The notes under the pieces: generated by a model
What the model was told of the DNA's origin: nothing
What the model saw: the letters and a program-made list of their open reading frames with translations, nothing else
Database searches by the model: none
From: Cristatella mucedo
Lineage: Eukaryota > Bryozoa > Phylactolaemata > Cristatellidae
DNA: 64,000 bases
Assembly (NCBI GenBank): GCA_009760855.2
Contig: WPIO01000022.1
Span: forward strand, 5,716,501 to 5,780,500
Reading direction: 5' to 3'
Program-made: the position numbers and the translations under genes
Shown here: positions 2,013-62,910 of the stretch, in pieces
Position numbering within the stretch: position 1 is the first letter of the stretch
Layout: the number at the start of each line of letters is the position of its first letter

Positions 2013-3558
2013 AACATTAATAATAATAATAATAATAATATTGCACTTGATAAAGCGCCCTCAGAGAACTTAATCTCTTTCTAGGCGCTTTACATTTGCT
2101 GCAAAGTGATACGCAATAGAATAGTAAGTAAAATCATGCTTGAAAAACAAACAAAATGAATAACATGGTTAGGGGTTACATGCACTGGGTCAGCATGCAA
2201 ATGTGGTTAGTGGCAGCATGAACAGTGTCAGCACGCATAAGCACATCGAAGACGAATCACAAGGACCCACTAAATGCTGTCCTAAATAGGTATGTTTTTA
2301 AGTTTCTTTTAAATGTGGTCAGGTCAGGGGATGTTCTGATGCAGGTCGGGAGGGAGTTCCAGGCTGTGGGAGCATACGAGCTAAATGCACGGTCTCCAAA
2401 GGATTTAAGGTTTGTACGAGGTATTTCTAGACTGTTGGATTCCGAACAGCGAGTGGTACGATGCTTTGCCTGATGGGGTAGTATCTCTGAAAGATAGGCT
2501 GGAGCCATAGAATGAAGAGACCTAAAAGTGAGCGACAAAACCTTGAAGTCAATCCGTTGCTTGACTGGTAACCAGTGCAGGTCGGCGAGAAGTGGAGTAA
2601 TGTGGCAACTGCGACGCTCACGACAGACAAGCCTAACTGCAGAGTTTTGCACCAGCTGCAATCGCCTGATCGCACATGCTGGTAGGCCAGTAAGCAGTGA
2701 GTTTCAGAAGTCGAGACGAGATGTCACGAATGCATGGACCAACTTGGACGTGGTATCCTTATCTAAACAAGCCCTAATTTTAGCAATGTTATGAAGCTGA
2801 AAATAGGCTGATTTGACTGTGGAGCTGATGTGGTCGTCTAACGAGAGGTCGCTTTGGAATATGACACCTAGATTTCGAGCTGATGCAACTGGAGATATGC
2901 TGGCAGAGCCAATTTTGAAAGTCAGCCTTTCCAATTTCTGAATAACACTAGGTTTGCCCATAACTAGTAAGTTAGTTTTATCATCGTTTAGTTTTAGAAA
3001 ATTTGCTGCCATCCATGATCGGATGTCATCAATGCATGCAGCAAGTGAGTTGAGAGAATTTGAGGTGCTCGAAGGCTGGGAGGGATCAAAGCAAAGGTAC
3101 AACTGAGTGTCATCCGCATAGAAGTGAAAGCCTAGATTGTGCTTGGCAATCACATCAGCGAGAGGGAGAGTATAAACGGTGAAAAGGACCGGACCTAGCA
3201 CAGAGCCCTGAGGTACTCCATATTTTAGAGGTTCTTCAGATGATCTTTGTCCATTCACGTCAACACTCTGGAGTCTCCCACTGAGATAGGACCTGAACCA
3301 CTGCAGAGCAGTGTCAGTGATGCCCAGGCGAGATGAGAGGCGCTCTAGAAGTACTTTGTGATCGATGGTATCAAAAGCTGCCGAAAGATCGAGCAAAACA
3401 AGAAGAGACACTCTACCCATGTCTGCATTCCTAAGTAGGTCGTTGTATACCCGAAGCAATGCTGACTCTGTGGAGTGATTAGCTCTAAAGCCAGACTGGA
3501 ACTTACTAGCAAGGTGTGAGGTTTCGATATACGAGTTCAGCTGGTATGCCACGACCCG
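2013..3558 (-). mobile_element. 5'-truncated L2 LINE inserted in inverse orientation
   Basis: A younger L2 copy lies antiparallel inside the plus-strand L2. Its (AAT)n tail and L2 3' end are at 2013-2100. The 3' UTR follows, then the thumb region (minus ORF 2257-2661: [40 protein letters not shown]) and the RT core (minus ORF 2704-3606: [36 protein letters not shown]). The FYADD catalytic motif is intact. A stop after SRLDF separates the RT core from the thumb, so the element is dead or one mutation from an open frame. The left part of ORF2 and the endonuclease are missing. Confidence 0.85.
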
Positions 3559-3838
3559 TTCTCGACTTCTGTAACTCACTGCTTGCTGGTCTACCGGCCT
3601 GTGCAATCAGGTGCTTACAGCTGGTGCAAACTCTGCAACTAGGCTTGTCTGTCGTGAGCATAGCAGTTACCACTACTTGCCGACCTGCACTGGCTCCCAA
3701 TCAAGTAGCAATCAACTTCAAGGTTCTGTCAGTCACTTATAGGTCTCTTCATTCTCTGGTCTAGCCTATGTATAAGAACCACTACCCAACCATGCTAGCT
3801 AACGTACCACTAGCTATTCTGAATCAACTCGTTTACCT

Positions 3839-4030
3839 ATAAATAAATAAATAAATAAATCCTAGCTGATTAAACAGCCTCTTTTGTATAGCGACAGAAG
3901 AGCCTTTACGGCTATCACCACCGCTTGCAGTGGCGATAAAGGATCGCCCCACCGAAGGCACCGAACCCACGACCTCGGGACCGAGGCCGTGAAAGCAACC
4001 GCCTTACCTAGTGTGCCATCACGGCTCCTA
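3839..4030 (-). mobile_element. SINE-A with (AAAT)n tail, nested in L2
   Basis: A full-length SINE-A on the minus strand. The head has TGGCACACTAGG and GTGGGTTCGGTGCC, and the body ends in GCTGTTTAATCAGCTAGG. An (ATTT)n tail lies at 3839-3861. The L2 frame is interrupted at TTACCTAT and resumes at ACCTCGTACAAACCTC, so the insertion split an existing L2 copy. Confidence 0.75.
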
Positions 4031-11454: not shown

Positions 11455-12065
11455 TAACCATACCAAGACTCCCTTGCAGCATGTATTGCTGATACTGGCA
11501 CTTGGAAATGTCAGTAAACTTTCAAATTAAACGACGATAAAACCAACTTACTAGTTGCGGGCAACACTAGTGATACTCAGAAATAAGACACCAAACTCTT
11601 TAAATGAACCGGACCAGTTTATCAATCCATACATTTGACGTCTCGATTTCCACAACTAACTCATAGTAAGCCTTCATGCTTGTACTATCAGACTTTTACA
11701 GTGCTGCAAAACATGCAACTAGGCTGGTCTGCCGTGAAAGTCACAATTTTCACATTACACGAATTCTCACCAAGCAGTACTAGCTCCTATCAAACAGTAT
11801 ATAAACTTCCGAGGCTCTATCCCTCACTTGTAGATCCTTTCATTCTCTTGCTAAGACCTACCCATATGAAATACCTCCTTATCAGGCTTTGCACCGTACT
11901 ATCAGCTCTTCTGACTAAAGTCGCTAAACACAGACTTTAACCAATCTCAAATGAATAACTGGAGACGTAGCCTTCCGTTCATATTCTCCCAAAGCCTGGA
12001 ATTCCCTCGGGGCTGATTTCACGACATCCTTTGCCTTGACATTTAAAGTGCATCAAGTCTTTTCT
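11455..12065 (+). mobile_element. L2 RT fragment, degenerate
   Basis: Contains remnants of the L2 RT C-terminal half (CCCTTGCAGCATGTATTG, AAACGACGATAAAACCAACT) and of the thumb region to GACATTTAAAGTG. Frame shifts and internal losses are numerous. Confidence 0.6.
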
Positions 12066-12500
12066 ACGATGGCAGACTTGCCTTCTTAGCATGAAGAAGA
12101 AGCAATATGTCAGCAAACCACCACCAACAGCCACATACCAACAGGGCCCCCCATACTGCACAAAAGCGACTGGTTCAGCAGCGACTAGACGTCCGCTAGA
12201 TGGAAGGCAATAGAAGTAGTGTGGTGACCTCGCACCTGCTACTACGGCTCCTACGGATAACGGAATGTAGAAATGCCAGGTGTGAGCTGAGACCCCACTC
12301 CTCGGGCTTGCCAATTTCAATCGCTGACTGGCGGTCTGCCAGAGCAGCGAGAGCTTGGGCGAATCAACATCATAGATGGAATACAAGCGAATTCGAAACG
12401 CTAAGCCGTTGTATTGGCGGCATCGTGTAGAAGACAGTGTTTTTATTTGCTCGCTCTATATATGTCTCTCTTGTCGGTTAGCATCGGGACATCAGTGAAC
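12066..12500. other. Spacer between two L2 fragments
   Basis: About 430 bp, somewhat GC-richer than its flanks. An open minus frame runs 11979-12386 but has no recognisable domain. It may be an insertion between two L2 pieces. Confidence 0.3.
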
Positions 12501-13675: not shown

Positions 13676-13848
13676 TGTGCATGTCACCCCTAACCATGTT
13701 ATTCATCTTGTTTGTTTTTCAAGCATGATTTTACTTACGATTTAATTGCATTTCCCTTTGCAGCAAATGTAAAGCGCCTAGAAAGAGATTGAGTTCTCTA
13801 GGGGCGCTTTATCAAGTACATTATTATTATTATTATTATTATTTGTCA
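13676..13848 (+). mobile_element. Second L2 3' end in tandem
   Basis: A second 3' UTR, beginning GACCCTGTGCATGTCACCC, directly follows the first poly(ATT) tail and ends in its own (ATT)n. It is a very short truncated insertion at the tail of the previous copy. Confidence 0.75.
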
Positions 13849-14700
13849 GGGCCGCGACCGCGCGCTCGCTACTAAGTCTGGCAGGGTACAATAGAAGGCA
13901 AAGCGGAAGTGAACGGAAGCGCATTAAATGCGAAGTAAATATGCAATACAGATCGCAATTGCTTATTATCCTTTACAGGAGCTTCGCATGCCCGCAGACA
14001 CGCATGCATTTGGGGCAACTTGCTCGCAGCTTCGGCTCGGCCGCGTGCTAGCGAGCGTTCCGCTACACAGACGTGTGCATGCCAAAATCTTACGGAGGTT
14101 TTCGATATCGACGGCTTTGGACACATTTCTGCACTGGCTAGCAAAAGAGGGCGGTCAAAGACTTACCCACCGCCTCTACGATCCAAGAAACAGTCGCGAG
14201 GTACAAAGTGACCTTGACTCATAGTCCATAAACCCATGTAGAAGTTACCCCGGGCTAATCATCAGATACATACCGCTCGATTAAGCCATTGAGCCGATAA
14301 TTTTTTTATGATTTGAACTACTGACTTTCTCTACCGGTAAAGGCGACACTATCTATAGTGTTGTCATAGTAGAGGTCAGGGCTGCGGCCAGGGTCTCACA
14401 TCCGGTACAATTTCTGTTCGCACTAGTCTGGGCATCGTGTTGCGATGGTTGCTCGTAACAGCAGACTAGGACACAGGGTACAAATTTCAAGCAGATCAGA
14501 GACGGTGACCCATTCTTTTAAGTTAATATATTCGTCAACGGATATCATAGCCTTAATCTTCATATGGACTTAAGCACTGGAGGGGTGTTGCTGACCGAGG
14601 GACTGCGGCTGCGCTGATACCGAGGTGCTGACGGAGCGCTGGCTCTTCAGTGACGTCGGGACAACGTGACCCATATAGCCTAGTTAATCATTCAACTATT
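13849..14700. other. No recognised gene; weak ORFs at 13928-14224
   Basis: A GC-rich start, then ordinary sequence. Open frames of about 90-98 codons exist on both strands at 13872-14224. Neither has a recognisable domain. Confidence 0.25.
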
Positions 14701-33610: not shown

Positions 33611-35863
33611 CTAGCGGGGGGGGGGGGGGGGGGGGGGGGGGGGAACAGACGACGCCGAAGCTACCTGCTCGAGGAGGGCTCGCTGTTTCGCTGTCAGCCA
33701 CGAGGCGTCTCCGAGTCCCTGGGCGAGGTTGTAGCCATGCGCGAGGGAAGCGTCGAGCTCCGATGACGGCCGAACGACAGCGCTGGCATCGCGAGCAGCC
33801 CGCTGGAGCGACAGCGGCGACGTCTCCGACACGGCCCGCCGCAGCGGCGAACGGCTCTGGCCGAACGCCAGTGCCGCTGCGCCGCCGTCGTGAGGCCACG
33901 TAGGCAGCGCTCGCCGCCCGGCTGCACTTCGCGGAGCAGCCGGCGTCGGGTTTCGAGGAAAGCTGCGGTCGAGTCCCGCGACGTCGTTCTCCGCCTCCTC
34001 CGCCGCCGCCATCGGAGCCGCCGTCGGTACGAGTCGGCGCACCCAGTCCCGAAGCGCATCCGACAGTGGCAGCTGCTGCTGCTGCTGCACGGCGAAATCG
34101 GTCTGCGGCTCGTCCGATTCGGCTATGGGCGTCAGGTCGAGCGGTCGCGTCAGCGAGTCTCGCGTCTTCTCTTCTCGCCGCAGCAGGCGCTCGCTGTACA
34201 GGTCGAGAATCCCGAGCTGGTCGCAAGCCAGCTCGGGTGACGTGGCCTGGGCGTCGTGCGAGGCCGGCTGCGCGGGCTCCTGCGCCGAACCCAGGCGAAC
34301 CTGCAGCGGCAGCTGCGGCTGAGCTGCATCAGCCCCGCCGCCACCGCCGCCTCCAGACGGTGGGCCGCCGACCGCAGCAGCGACCGCCGTCTCGTCGGCG
34401 ATCCGTTCGCTGTCGCCGGGCTCGGCGCTGCGCCGGCCGCCCGCGAAGGCAGCCCGGGAGCGCCTTTTCGCCGAACGTGCTGCCGCGCCGCCACCGGCGT
34501 GCGCCTTTTTCTTCCGAGCGCGGCGGCGCCGCCGCTCGCCGGTCGCCTCCGTCGCCGTCGAGTCGGTTTCGACCGGTGGCGAAACCGGCGACCGGCTGGA
34601 GACGCCCGAATCTGGAGGCTCTTGGCCCGCCGCGGCGACGACGTCGGCTCCGGCCGCCGGCGCCATTCCTCCTACGACGGCCGCGTCGGAACTCGCCGCC
34701 GGGTTCGCCAGGCCGCGCCGCGCCGACGCTGCTGCGGGGCTCGTGGCCGCCTCGTGGCCACCGTCAAACTTGATCCCCGACGTCCGGTACAACCTCTTCA
34801 CCTGAGGCTTCATCCTGTTCAGCAGGCTGACCGGCAAGTCCGACTGCGGATAGAGGTCCCAGACGGAAGTAAGCGTGCTCCGCTCGCCGCCCGCTCGCGT
34901 CACGTTCAAGCTCGACACCCTCGACGCCGAAGCCGTCTTCGAGCGCCAGCGCAACGCGCCGGCGGCTGCCACTGCTGCCCCCTCCTCAAGCGTCTCGTCG
35001 AAAGCCGCCGACGCGGACGCTGTGCGCCATGCGTCGCCGCCGCACACCTCTGGCGGCGCTCGCGAGGCGGCGGCGGCGGCGGAGGCAGGGCTCGCCATGG
35101 CGGCCCGCGCTGCTGCGTGCTCTTCTGAGCGACCGGCTGCCGCCGCCGCCGCCACCGCCGCGAGTGGTCGCTGAGCTCGAATGGCAGCCGCGGCCGCGGC
35201 TGCGCCGCGACGTTGCGACGCGACTCCGGCGAACTTGCTGAGCCGGTCGCAGCTGCGCATCGACTCCTTCGAGCCGCTCGCCGACGTCGTGCTGGACGCC
35301 CGCGCGGCGAGACTTTGCTCGCCCGTACTCGTCGTCTTCTCGTCACCCTCCTTGCCACGCCAGCCACCGCCGCCGCCGCCGCCGCCGCCGTCTGCGGACT
35401 CGCCTGACGGTATAGCGCAGTCGGCGGTGGCGAGCCTCCTTATGACGTTAACCCAGAGGCTCCACGTCCGGCCGCGCTTTGCCAGCGAGCTGGGGTTGTT
35501 GCACATTTCGAAAAGCAGCGGCTTACGTCCGCCGCCGCTCTCCACGCGAATCGTGTACGGCCCGGCGACGGACACGCCGATGTCGCCGAGCGGCAGCGCT
35601 TTTACCATCTCGAAGCCGTCCGTCTCCGGATCGTGACCGTCGGGCGGTCGCACGGCTTCCGGGTTCTGCCTGTAGTCCGCCGGCGGCAGCTGCCGGGTCA
35701 CAAGCAGCATCGTCGGCGTGACGGCCAGATGGAGTTGCTCCAGGCCAACGCCGGCCTCGTCCACGCGAACGAAAGGCGACTCGAGGACGATGTCGACGTC
35801 CTGAAACTCGTCGTACTCTCCGGTGCTCGCGAGGAACTTCTGGACGCGCAGCGAGCTGCTCAT
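33611..35863 (-). CDS. 750-residue single-exon ORF; possible PH-like (GARIN/FAM71-like) N-terminal domain
   Basis: A long GC-rich frame from ATG 35863 to TAG 33611. Residues 1-160 look folded: FQDVDIVLESPFVRVDEAG, LHLAVTPTMLLVTRQLP, FEMVKALPLGDIGVSVAG, ending WSLWVNVIRRLA. The strand pattern with a final W-containing helix resembles PH-like domains. The order (ESxFVxV, then LAVTPTMLLVTR, then a LPL segment, basic strand and W helix) weakly recalls the GARIN/FAM71 Rab2-binding domain. That assignment is inference. The remainder is Ala/Gly/Arg/Ser-rich and disordered, with a basic block RRRRARKKK. The C terminus is nine prolines encoded by a 28-G homopolymer, so the true end is uncertain. The ORF starts 292 bp from a plus-strand first exon at 36155. 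Confidence 0.6.
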   Translation of the reverse strand: MSSSLRVQKFLASTGEYDEFQDVDIVLESPFVRVDEAGVGLEQLHLAVTPTMLLVTRQLPPADYRQNPEAVRPPDGHDPETDGFEMVKALPLGDIGVSVAGPYTIRVESGGGRKPLLFEMCNNPSSLAKRGRTWSLWVNVIRRLATADCAIPSGESADGGGGGGGGGWRGKEGDEKTTSTGEQSLAARASSTTSASGSKESMRSCDRLSKFAGVASQRRGAAAAAAAIRAQRPLAAVAAAAAAGRSEEHAAARAAMASPASAAAAASRAPPEVCGGDAWRTASASAAFDETLEEGAAVAAAGALRWRSKTASASRVSSLNVTRAGGERSTLTSVWDLYPQSDLPVSLLNRMKPQVKRLYRTSGIKFDGGHEAATSPAAASARRGLANPAASSDAAVVGGMAPAAGADVVAAAGQEPPDSGVSSRSPVSPPVETDSTATEATGERRRRRARKKKAHAGGGAAARSAKRRSRAAFAGGRRSAEPGDSERIADETAVAAAVGGPPSGGGGGGGADAAQPQLPLQVRLGSAQEPAQPASHDAQATSPELACDQLGILDLYSERLLRREEKTRDSLTRPLDLTPIAESDEPQTDFAVQQQQQLPLSDALRDWVRRLVPTAAPMAAAEEAENDVAGLDRSFPRNPTPAAPRSAAGRRALPTWPHDGGAAALAFGQSRSPLRRAVSETSPLSLQRAARDASAVVRPSSELDASLAHGYNLAQGLGDASWLTAKQRALLEQVASASSVPPPPPPPPPR
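33616..33643. repeat. Poly-G homopolymer, 28 bp
   Basis: An uninterrupted G run (C on the coding minus strand) lying inside the last codons of the 750-residue ORF. Confidence 0.95.
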
Positions 35864-36480
35864 GCCGTCTCCGCGTCGGCGCTCCGCTCAGCCGAGCGCC
35901 GCGCGTGAGCGCGCGCCAGCGGCAGGCGCGGCCGGCGCGAGGGCGCGGCGAGAGGAAGCAGCAGCAGCCGCAGCTGACGGGACGCCGCCACCGCCGTCGG
36001 GGCAGAGAGACCGAAAACGAGCAGCGAGCCTCAGCGACGGCGAGCGCCGGCGGCGGCGGCATCGCATTCCGCGCGCGACTTCCGACCTGCCGCCGCGTTT
36101 CGCGCGCGCTTCGATTTGCGCCAGTACGAGGCGTCTCTCGTCGAGCTGCGTCCGATGGCAACGTCTCTGAAAGTGGGAGAAAATAAGAAGTTCCTTCTGC
36201 GCGTCATCGACACAGACGGTAGGCGTACTCACTCACGTGGAAGCTCAAGCCTGGAAGCGTTCGGGCGTAAGAAGCGCTCGCCGACGGCGGAGCCGCTGTG
36301 CGATTCCGGCTGGCAGCGGGCGGCCGATGCTCGTGGGCGAAGGCTGGCGAAGGCAAAGGCGAACGCGAGAGCGCCGGTGACGTCACGGAGCTCTGGGCCG
36401 AACTGAATGAGGAGCGAACCGGAGCGGCTGCGGTTAAGCGCGATGCAACGTGAGCAGCGAGCAGTCTGCTCGGAAGCGCC
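35864..36480. promoter_or_regulatory. CpG-rich bidirectional promoter
   Basis: Very CpG-rich sequence lies between and around the minus-strand ATG at 35863 and the plus-strand ATG at 36155. No TATA box is seen. The layout suggests one divergent promoter. Confidence 0.45.
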
Positions 36481-39025: not shown

Positions 39026-39427
39026 TTTGTCAAACGGTCGTTTGCCTAGGATAGCCGTGTGACAGCGGTGAGAAAAGAGATTGGCGTAAATTCGTAAGTT
39101 ATGCATGGGGCGGTAAATAACCTGCTCCCTAGTCTCGGTTACATTTCTATAATGTCCGATAATGCCAATTCAGCAACAACAGAATTTCCTTAACCATGCC
39201 TAGTTGGTTGCCGTGCTAGTGTCCGAAGATGACAGATTTATACTCGCAAAAATCCAATCTAAGTGGAATCGTCCCAGACAAGGCTACCAAAATTAGGGGA
39301 CACGCAAAATAATGAGTTTGCGAAAGTTGTATACAAATTGCACACGAGTCGTCAAAAATCGGAAAGCATAAAATTCACAGTCTTCTCCTTCGTTATAAAA
39401 GTATAGGCAAATGACATGTAAAAAAAA

Positions 39428-39596
39428 TCCTAGCCGATTAAACAGCATCTTTTTGTATAGCGACAGAAGAGCCTTTACGGCTATCACCACCGCTTGCAGT
39501 GACGATAAAGGATCGCCCACCGCAGGAATCGAACCCACGACCTCGGTCCCGAGGTCGTGAAAGCAACCGCCTTACCTAGTGTGTCATCACGGCTCA
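39428..39596 (-). mobile_element. SINE-A, well preserved
   Basis: On the minus strand: GCCGTGATGACACACTAGG (A box), GTGGGTTCGATTCCTGCGG (B box), GGGCGATCCTTTATCG, GCAAGCGGTGGTGATAGCCG, TTCTGTCGCTATACAAAAAG, ending TTAATCGGCTAGG. Confidence 0.85.
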
Positions 39597-39652
39597 CCAT
39601 GTAGTATTGTCGCCCAACTGAACGATGCAAAAGAATAGTTCCTCATCGGACA

Positions 39653-40765: not shown

Positions 40766-40915
40766 ACTCGTTCGAAGCCCACAGCATCACTGACTAATTA
40801 ATTTGTATTACACGTTAGCGGATCCACTGATAAATCTTGCGTAGGCGATATTCATTCTGAAAACTCAAGCCGTGCTTACATAAGCCTGTCGCAGCACAAT
40901 CGCTCAGCCATAAAA

Positions 40916-41096
40916 AATCCTAGCTGATTAAACAGCCTCTTTTTGTATAGCGACAGAAGAGCCTTTAAGGCTATCACCACCGCTTGCAGTGGCGATAAAG
41001 GATCGCCCACCGCAGGAATCGAACCCACGACCTCGGGAGCGAGGTCGTGAAAGCAACCGCCTTACCTAGTGTGCCATCACGGCTCACCATGACTCA
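40916..41096 (-). mobile_element. SINE-A, well preserved
   Basis: Nearly identical to 39428-39596: GCCGTGATGGCACACTAGG, GTGGGTTCGATTCCTGCGG, GCAAGCGGTGGTGATAGCC, ATACAAAAAGAGGCTG. Confidence 0.85.
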
Positions 41097-41166
41097 CCAA
41101 CCTGCAGACCGTTCCTAAAACTGACTGTCATGGTCACGCTCTTCATTTTTATCCGTTTGACTAGTG

Positions 41167-41361
41167 CAGCGGTTCTCAACCTTTGGGTCGCGACCCCTTT
41201 GGGGGGGGGGGGGTCGAACGACCCTTACACAGAGGTTGCCTAAGACCATCGGAAGACACACATTTCCACATGTTGCGAACAATAATTTTACGGTTGGGGG
41301 TCACCACAATATGGGCAACTGTATTAAAGGGTCGTGGCATTAGGAAGGTTGAGAACCACTG
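41167..41361 (-). mobile_element. SPIN-like hAT MITE
   Basis: A 195-bp element with terminal inverted repeats CAGCGGTTCTCAACCTT and AAGGTTGAGAACCACTG. Read on the minus strand it gives AATGCCACGACCCTTTAATA, CAGTTGCCCATATTGTGGTG, ACCCCCAACCGTAAAATTAT, CGATGGTCTTAGGCAACC, AAGGGTCGTTCGACCCCC and GGGGTCGCGACCC. As I recall them, these are hallmark blocks of the SPIN (Space Invader) non-autonomous hAT family. Flanks GACTAGTG and ATCTAGTG form an 8-bp target-site duplication with 6/8 identity and a central TA, as expected for Buster-type hATs. A G run of about 13 has expanded inside. No transposase is encoded. Confidence 0.85.
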
Positions 41362-41369
41362 ATCTAGTG

Positions 41370-62604: not shown

Positions 62605-62726
62605 CATAGCACCCTCATTAAAAAAAACTTAATCTCTATTCATGTGCCACCAGGCTCGAGCCCACCGATGACCTCGGCCAGACCTTGGTCGGGGCTAGTA
62701 CCTTAACCATTCAGCCAAACCAGATG
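62598..62726 (-). mobile_element. SINE-B
   Basis: The minus strand shows TGGTTAAGGTACTAGCCCCG (A-box area), CGGTGGGCTCGAGCC, then AAGTTTTTTTTAATGAGGG and TGCTATGCAATATAT. Confidence 0.6.
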
Positions 62727-62727
62727 T

Positions 62728-62910
62728 GAGCCGTGATGGCACACTGGGTAAGGCGGTTGCTTTCATGACCTCAGTCCCGAGGTCGTGGGTTCGATTCCTG
62801 TGGTGGGCGATCCTTTATCGCCACTGCAAGCGGCGTGATAGCCATAAAGGCTCTTCTGTCGCTATACAAAAAGAGGCTGTTTCAGCAGCTAGGATTTATT
62901 TATTATTTAT
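62728..62910 (+). mobile_element. SINE-A, well preserved
   Basis: GAGCCGTGATGGCACACTGG (A box), GTCGTGGGTTCGATTCCTG (B box), GGGCGATCCTTTATCGCCAC, AAGGCTCTTCTGTCGC, TATACAAAAAGAGGCTG, then an ATTT tail. Confidence 0.85.

Follow-up and report, generated by a model that had tools for sequence, protein, structure and literature searches.

The window, by which we mean the whole analysed stretch of 64,000 nucleotides, carries between positions 41167 and 41361 one complete copy of a short DNA transposon without genes, a SPIN-type hAT MITE. The parts of this copy, its target site and its internal blocks are located as follows.

41167-41361, plus strand: SPIN-type hAT MITE, complete copy, 195 bp (family consensus 187 bp)
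41159-41166, plus strand: target-site duplication, left copy, GACTAGTG, 8 bp with TA central
41167-41183, plus strand: left terminal inverted repeat, CAGCGGTTCTCAACCTT, exact end motif, pairing with the right end at 16/17 bases
41185-41196, no strand assigned: subterminal perfect palindrome, GGGTCGCGACCC, consensus positions 19-30, detected on the consensus
41201-41213, plus strand: expanded G-run, 13 G here and 5 in the consensus
41230-41253, plus strand: internal block around CCTAAGACCATCGGA, with a consensus form common to two published mouse primers
41281-41361, plus strand: right block, with a consensus form that aligns with a stretch of the mouse FDH (Adh5) locus at 67/80
41345-41361, minus strand: right terminal inverted repeat, CAGTGGTTCTCAACCTT on the minus strand, exact end motif
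41362-41369, plus strand: target-site duplication, right copy, ATCTAGTG, 8 bp with TA central

Read directly, the element starts with CAGCGGTTCTCAACC and ends with GGTTGAGAACCACTG, and its outer 17 bases form inverted repeats, paired at all positions but one. The terminal inverted repeats CAGYGGTTCTCAACC, the SPIN end motif, given as such also by the initial annotation, are exact at both ends, and these ends are the only two places in the whole window where the motif occurs exactly, bearing out the two SPIN-type ends that had been proposed. At up to three mismatches the motif occurs 4 times in the window, with 2.54 expected from shuffles, and 28 of 100 shuffles reach 4. The length of 195 bp exceeds that of the 187-bp family consensus by 8 additional G in the G-run, and the copy differs from the consensus by 8.0%. 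With this divergence and the expanded G-run, it is decayed and probably inactive. A blastn comparison of the element with the window found no second copy, only matches to its own ends and to G-runs.

The remainder of the window contains further repeats and open frames, among them the following.

40910-41091, 39422-39601, 3851-4027, 62726-62903 and 676-852: short repeat, about 180 bp in length; identity of the other copies to that at 40910-41091 is 90-96%
2704-3606, minus strand: reverse transcriptase (RVT_1, E 1.9e-27)
33611-35887, minus strand: open frame of 758 codons, very GC-rich, with alanine, glycine and serine runs

The distance from the MITE to the repeat copy at 40910-41091 is 75 bp. 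One end of this repeat resembles, by eye, the 3' half of a tRNA, and the repeat is probably a SINE; no tRNA was found in the window by ARAGORN. The reverse transcriptase looks like part of a non-LTR element, and pieces related to it recur many times in the window. The 758-codon frame, perhaps an exon, had no match above threshold in Pfam (best E 0.053), and a comparison with the PDB likewise gave none at E 0.001.

The assembly to which the window belongs comprises 572 Mb in 688 contigs. Contig C688, of 21,008 bp, is a mitochondrial genome with COX1 and, by Pfam, ND5, ND4L, CYTB, ND1, ATP6, COX3 and COX2; ND4 and ND2 were assigned from a common antiporter domain, supported for ND4 by its amino-terminal domain, while ND6, which has no Pfam match, and ND3 were named by eye. 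In its COX1, 11 TGA codons are in frame, AGA and AGG codons occur at sites where other animals have serine, and AAA stands twice at sites where they have lysine; this placement indicates the invertebrate mitochondrial code and not the vertebrate, echinoderm or ascidian one. The genes ND1-ND6-CYTB-ND4L-ND4-ND5 follow each other in this order on one strand, an arrangement found in molluscs and in some brachiopods and phoronids. The host is accordingly taken to be an invertebrate, probably a lophotrochozoan. A lamprey, suggested at first by GC-rich coding frames, was rejected as host because TGA and AGA/AGG stand in frame within the mitochondrial genes. As phylum markers, mollusc haemocyanin (PF14830) and arthropod cuticle protein (PF00379) each gave 0 matches, and likewise none in any control genome. 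The mitochondrial contig (L032, L033, L046) also contains repeated stretches: the same open frames recur about 2.1 kb apart, for example at 11632-12460 and 13747-14575, and a further time near 2537-3365 on the opposite strand. On contigs C166, C83, C549 and C299 lie five additional COX1-like pieces (including L030 and L031) that contain in-frame stops and are probably nuclear copies of mitochondrial DNA.

The MITE is abundant in this assembly. Searching for its 25-base right end at up to three mismatches gave 771 forward and 800 reverse matches, 1,571 altogether, and none with the backwards-pattern control; the genome-wide count that had been called for therefore excludes a lone copy. In a DNA search of the assembly with the element, the best 40 of 2,151 candidates, the element itself excluded, were 84-88% identical to it. 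The copies fetched came from many contigs, several of which are over 10 Mb in length. A 187-bp majority consensus was built from 40 copies, which score highest against the window copy and so do not sample the family at random. Both ends were recognised at up to three mismatches per end in 39 of these 40, and the remaining row (L028), in which the match stops at position 181 and no end pair was recognised, was left out of the later counts.

The 39 copies have a median distance of 5.9% from the consensus (4.5% outside CpG sites) and differ from each other by 10.8% on average, in a star-like pattern. The mean pairwise difference is about twice the distance to the consensus, as would be expected if a single master had given rise to a burst of copies. 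A second sample of 20 right ends was drawn from 100 listed right ends, each exact over 25 bases and therefore also selected; 13 of the 20 copies were full length by the limits of the script, with a median divergence of 7.0%. Three others (L107, L121 and L122) were nearly full, and the left half was wholly or partly missing in four (L108, L110, L113 and L115). A longer SPIN element behind L108 was considered and rejected, as the next 1.8 kb had no left end and held several repeat pieces that also occur in the window. Three SPIN patterns had no exact match in a collection of viral contigs, and two had none in a collection of prokaryote contigs, sets with no animal genomes in them.

SPIN belongs to the Buster group of the hAT superfamily, a group that duplicates 8 bp of target with a central TA, in the case of SPIN as nnnTAnnn. 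A duplication of this type had been claimed for the window copy. Its length of 8 bp and the central TA are confirmed, but GACTAGTG and ATCTAGTG are an imperfect pair, identical at 6/8 bases, and a match of this size is weak when taken alone, being reached by 109 of the 1,482 combinations that join flanks of two different copies. Across the family, against that background, the octamers on the two sides share at least 6/8 bases in 31 of 39 copies; they are identical at all eight bases in 12 and fall below 6/8 in 8. TA occupies positions 4-5 on both flanks in 25/39 copies, and the commonest bases of the left flank read CTCTAGAG. The classification as a SPIN-like hAT MITE is thus upheld by the ends, by these family-wide duplications and by the interior.

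For the interior, an approximate vertebrate SPIN consensus aligned with ours at 179/186 bases, leaving about 39 of its own bases unaligned in the middle, and this alignment is used as a lead only. Our consensus also matches published mouse stretches which we presume to be SPIN/URR1 repeats, a label that the cited passages of their sources do not carry. At the left end, a mouse primer for Ate1 screening (PMC2767504) matched at 18/19 bases, with a score of 17, while 500 shuffles reached at most 10. A second Ate1 primer from the same source matched the interior at 18/20 (score 16, 500 shuffles at most 11), as did a primer for Kcnq1ot1 (PMC6221546), with 18/18 aligned bases out of 20 (score 18, 500 shuffles at most 11). 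The right block aligned at 67/80 with a stretch from gene targeting of the mouse FDH locus, taken here as Adh5 (PMC8376875), with a score of 52 where 500 shuffles gave no more than 14. As the interior and the right block both match the published mouse sequence, the termini are not the sole match and the internal SPIN blocks that had been proposed are present. A separate observation concerns these primers themselves, used for Ate1 screening (PMC2767504) and Kcnq1ot1 expression (PMC6221546): as they match a repeat family, their target sites may be repetitive, and they could anneal to more than one site in the mouse genome.

Transposases that could move such an element were looked for in the assembly by domain and by Buster-type queries. 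At least 46 matches were obtained for DUF4371 (best 150 of 237 candidates scored) and at least 138 for the hAT dimerisation domain (best 150 of 766 candidates scored). Two further queries, both approximate sequences, were a Buster-like fragment, for which the best 144 of 810 candidates were scored, and TcBuster, for which all 69 scored matches (best 69 of 890) were only 28-34% identical. Together these searches reveal many hAT transposases in the genome. The 58 transposase loci that were inspected represent 56 distinct places, L090 and L091 being repeats of L069 and L070. The MITE ends at up to two mismatches were absent from 20 of the loci, and paired ends at up to three mismatches were absent from 34, in which L092 had one single match. 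Among the four loci searched at up to four mismatches, L101 and L102 matched at both ends, with CAGGGGTCGGCAACC-type ends of their own. None of the 58 loci contained an alignment of the MITE longer than 30 bases.

The initial annotation had suggested looking for a full hAT transposase: many hAT transposases are present, but in the loci inspected, which represent few of the scored candidates, no Buster-group transposase lies between SPIN ends. Many of these loci span only about 1.5 kb on each side of the matched domain, so an element end could lie outside, and the searches could have overlooked a rare SPIN transposase. As no transposase with SPIN ends is found in the inspected loci, the copies look non-autonomous and moved in trans, and the simplest reading is a non-autonomous family that was mobilised in trans in the past and is now decaying.

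Several other hAT families in the genome have intact or near-intact transposase frames. The first is a 2.7-kb family ending in CAGGGGTGTCCAAC (L067:629-3334, L068-L070, L081-L100), with copies about 93-95% identical to L067, some of them with long open transposase frames. A relative of the L067 transposase in the PDB was considered and rejected, the single match being at chance level (E 0.45). The second family (L101, L102 and L103) has the ends CAGGGGTCGGCAACC in L102 and about 93% identity to L101 over the main aligned part; 4 of 15 bases separate its ends from those of SPIN. The third (L071-L080) consists of near-identical copies, a sequence pattern that suggests very recent activity. In this third family, 55 of the 138 dimerisation-domain matches listed share exactly 76.8 bits, and 21 of the 55 have open frames of at least 490 codons.

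These families raise the possibility that the MITE derives from one of them and that its ends resemble those of SPIN by chance, a reading that the few differences at the CAGGGGTCGGCAACC ends would favour. The 58 loci, however, contain neither the MITE ends, apart from the loose likeness in L101 and L102, nor any long alignment with it, and chance likeness of the ends would not yield the matches of interior and right block to mouse sequence. We therefore consider an origin from another hAT family of this genome very unlikely. A second alternative is that the element is indeed SPIN-like but old, and was inherited vertically in the host lineage. Against it, the copies are only about 6-7% from a consensus that itself stays near the mouse sequence, while DNA free of selection would lose such likeness across animal phyla, and the distribution of SPIN is read as horizontal transfer in the published work, as far as the cited passages go (PMC11614815, PMC5857283, PMC5440852). 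Long vertical descent is accordingly very improbable in our view. Contamination by a vertebrate fragment or one stray copy, which could be imagined because SPIN was first described in tetrapods (Pace 2008, by its title) and because a lone copy in raw sequence could be foreign, is hardly credible given the 1,571 right ends, the spread of the fetched copies over many contigs, several of them over 10 Mb, and a window copy so close to a repeat that recurs in the window.

We therefore regard it as highly probable that the window element is a non-autonomous SPIN-type hAT MITE, presumably mobilised in trans and of a lineage that would have entered by horizontal transfer. Noncoding DNA would not have stayed so alike by descent since the split between this invertebrate and the mouse, so horizontal transfer explains the likeness best; on this comparison with mouse sequence, a horizontal arrival in this lineage is plausible. 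The window element would then be one fixed, gene-less copy, which still has the inverted repeats at its ends and the subterminal sequence by which a transposase of the SPIN/Buster type would recognise it. Cut-and-paste transposition in trans would have duplicated 8 bp of target with TA at the centre, and the transposase responsible would be one that is absent from the inspected loci. Horizontal transfer may have brought in the lineage itself at some point ahead of the burst.

A stronger claim would be that SPIN independently invaded an unlisted invertebrate lineage here, leaving more than 1,500 copies and no transposase in the genome. We put this forward tentatively, as a possibility that falls somewhat short of an even chance. 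If true, the independent invasion would mark a route of transfer linking vertebrates with this lineage, or linking each of the two with a parasite common to them.

SPIN is well known as a DNA transposon family that entered distant animals within a short geological time. A new host leaves the understanding of SPIN itself unchanged, but every addition to the host list helps to constrain its timing and its carriers, particularly when that host is an invertebrate carrying more than 1,500 copies. The non-autonomous SPIN (SPACE INVADERS) hAT elements are described from mammals, reptiles and the blood-feeding bug Rhodnius (Pace 2008, Gilbert 2010 and 2012, as cited in later papers; PMC11614815 for Rhodnius). 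Transfers into galago, murine rodents, opossum, tenrec and vespertilionid bats are placed at 15-46 million years ago (PMC5857283), and 385 SPIN elements are given for the painted turtle (PMC4054807). For the snail Biomphalaria glabrata, the cited passage reports a SPIN-like hAT with about 1,000 copies, and no intact transposases of DNA elements in the assembly (PMC5440852).

The family described here is like the SPIN of mammals, reptiles and Rhodnius in its interior and right block, as judged through the mouse sequence, in being short, non-coding and high in copy number, and in its end sequence and its 8-bp duplication with central TA. It differs from vertebrate SPIN in a 187-bp consensus whose middle (about 86-106) does not align with the approximate vertebrate form, and in its invertebrate host. 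The matched mouse repeats, presumably of the URR1 type, are alike at the left end, in the interior and at the right end, while the only longer stretch from mouse shows more decay (67/80). The element of Biomphalaria, which can be likened by its description only, shares with ours an invertebrate host and a similar copy number, and the lack of intact DNA-element transposases reported there has a counterpart in the inspected loci here, where none was seen between SPIN ends. With these SPIN-like copies already published (PMC5440852), an invertebrate host is less of a surprise. The window element adds one more member to a well-known kind of transposon, in a host beyond those named in the cited passages.
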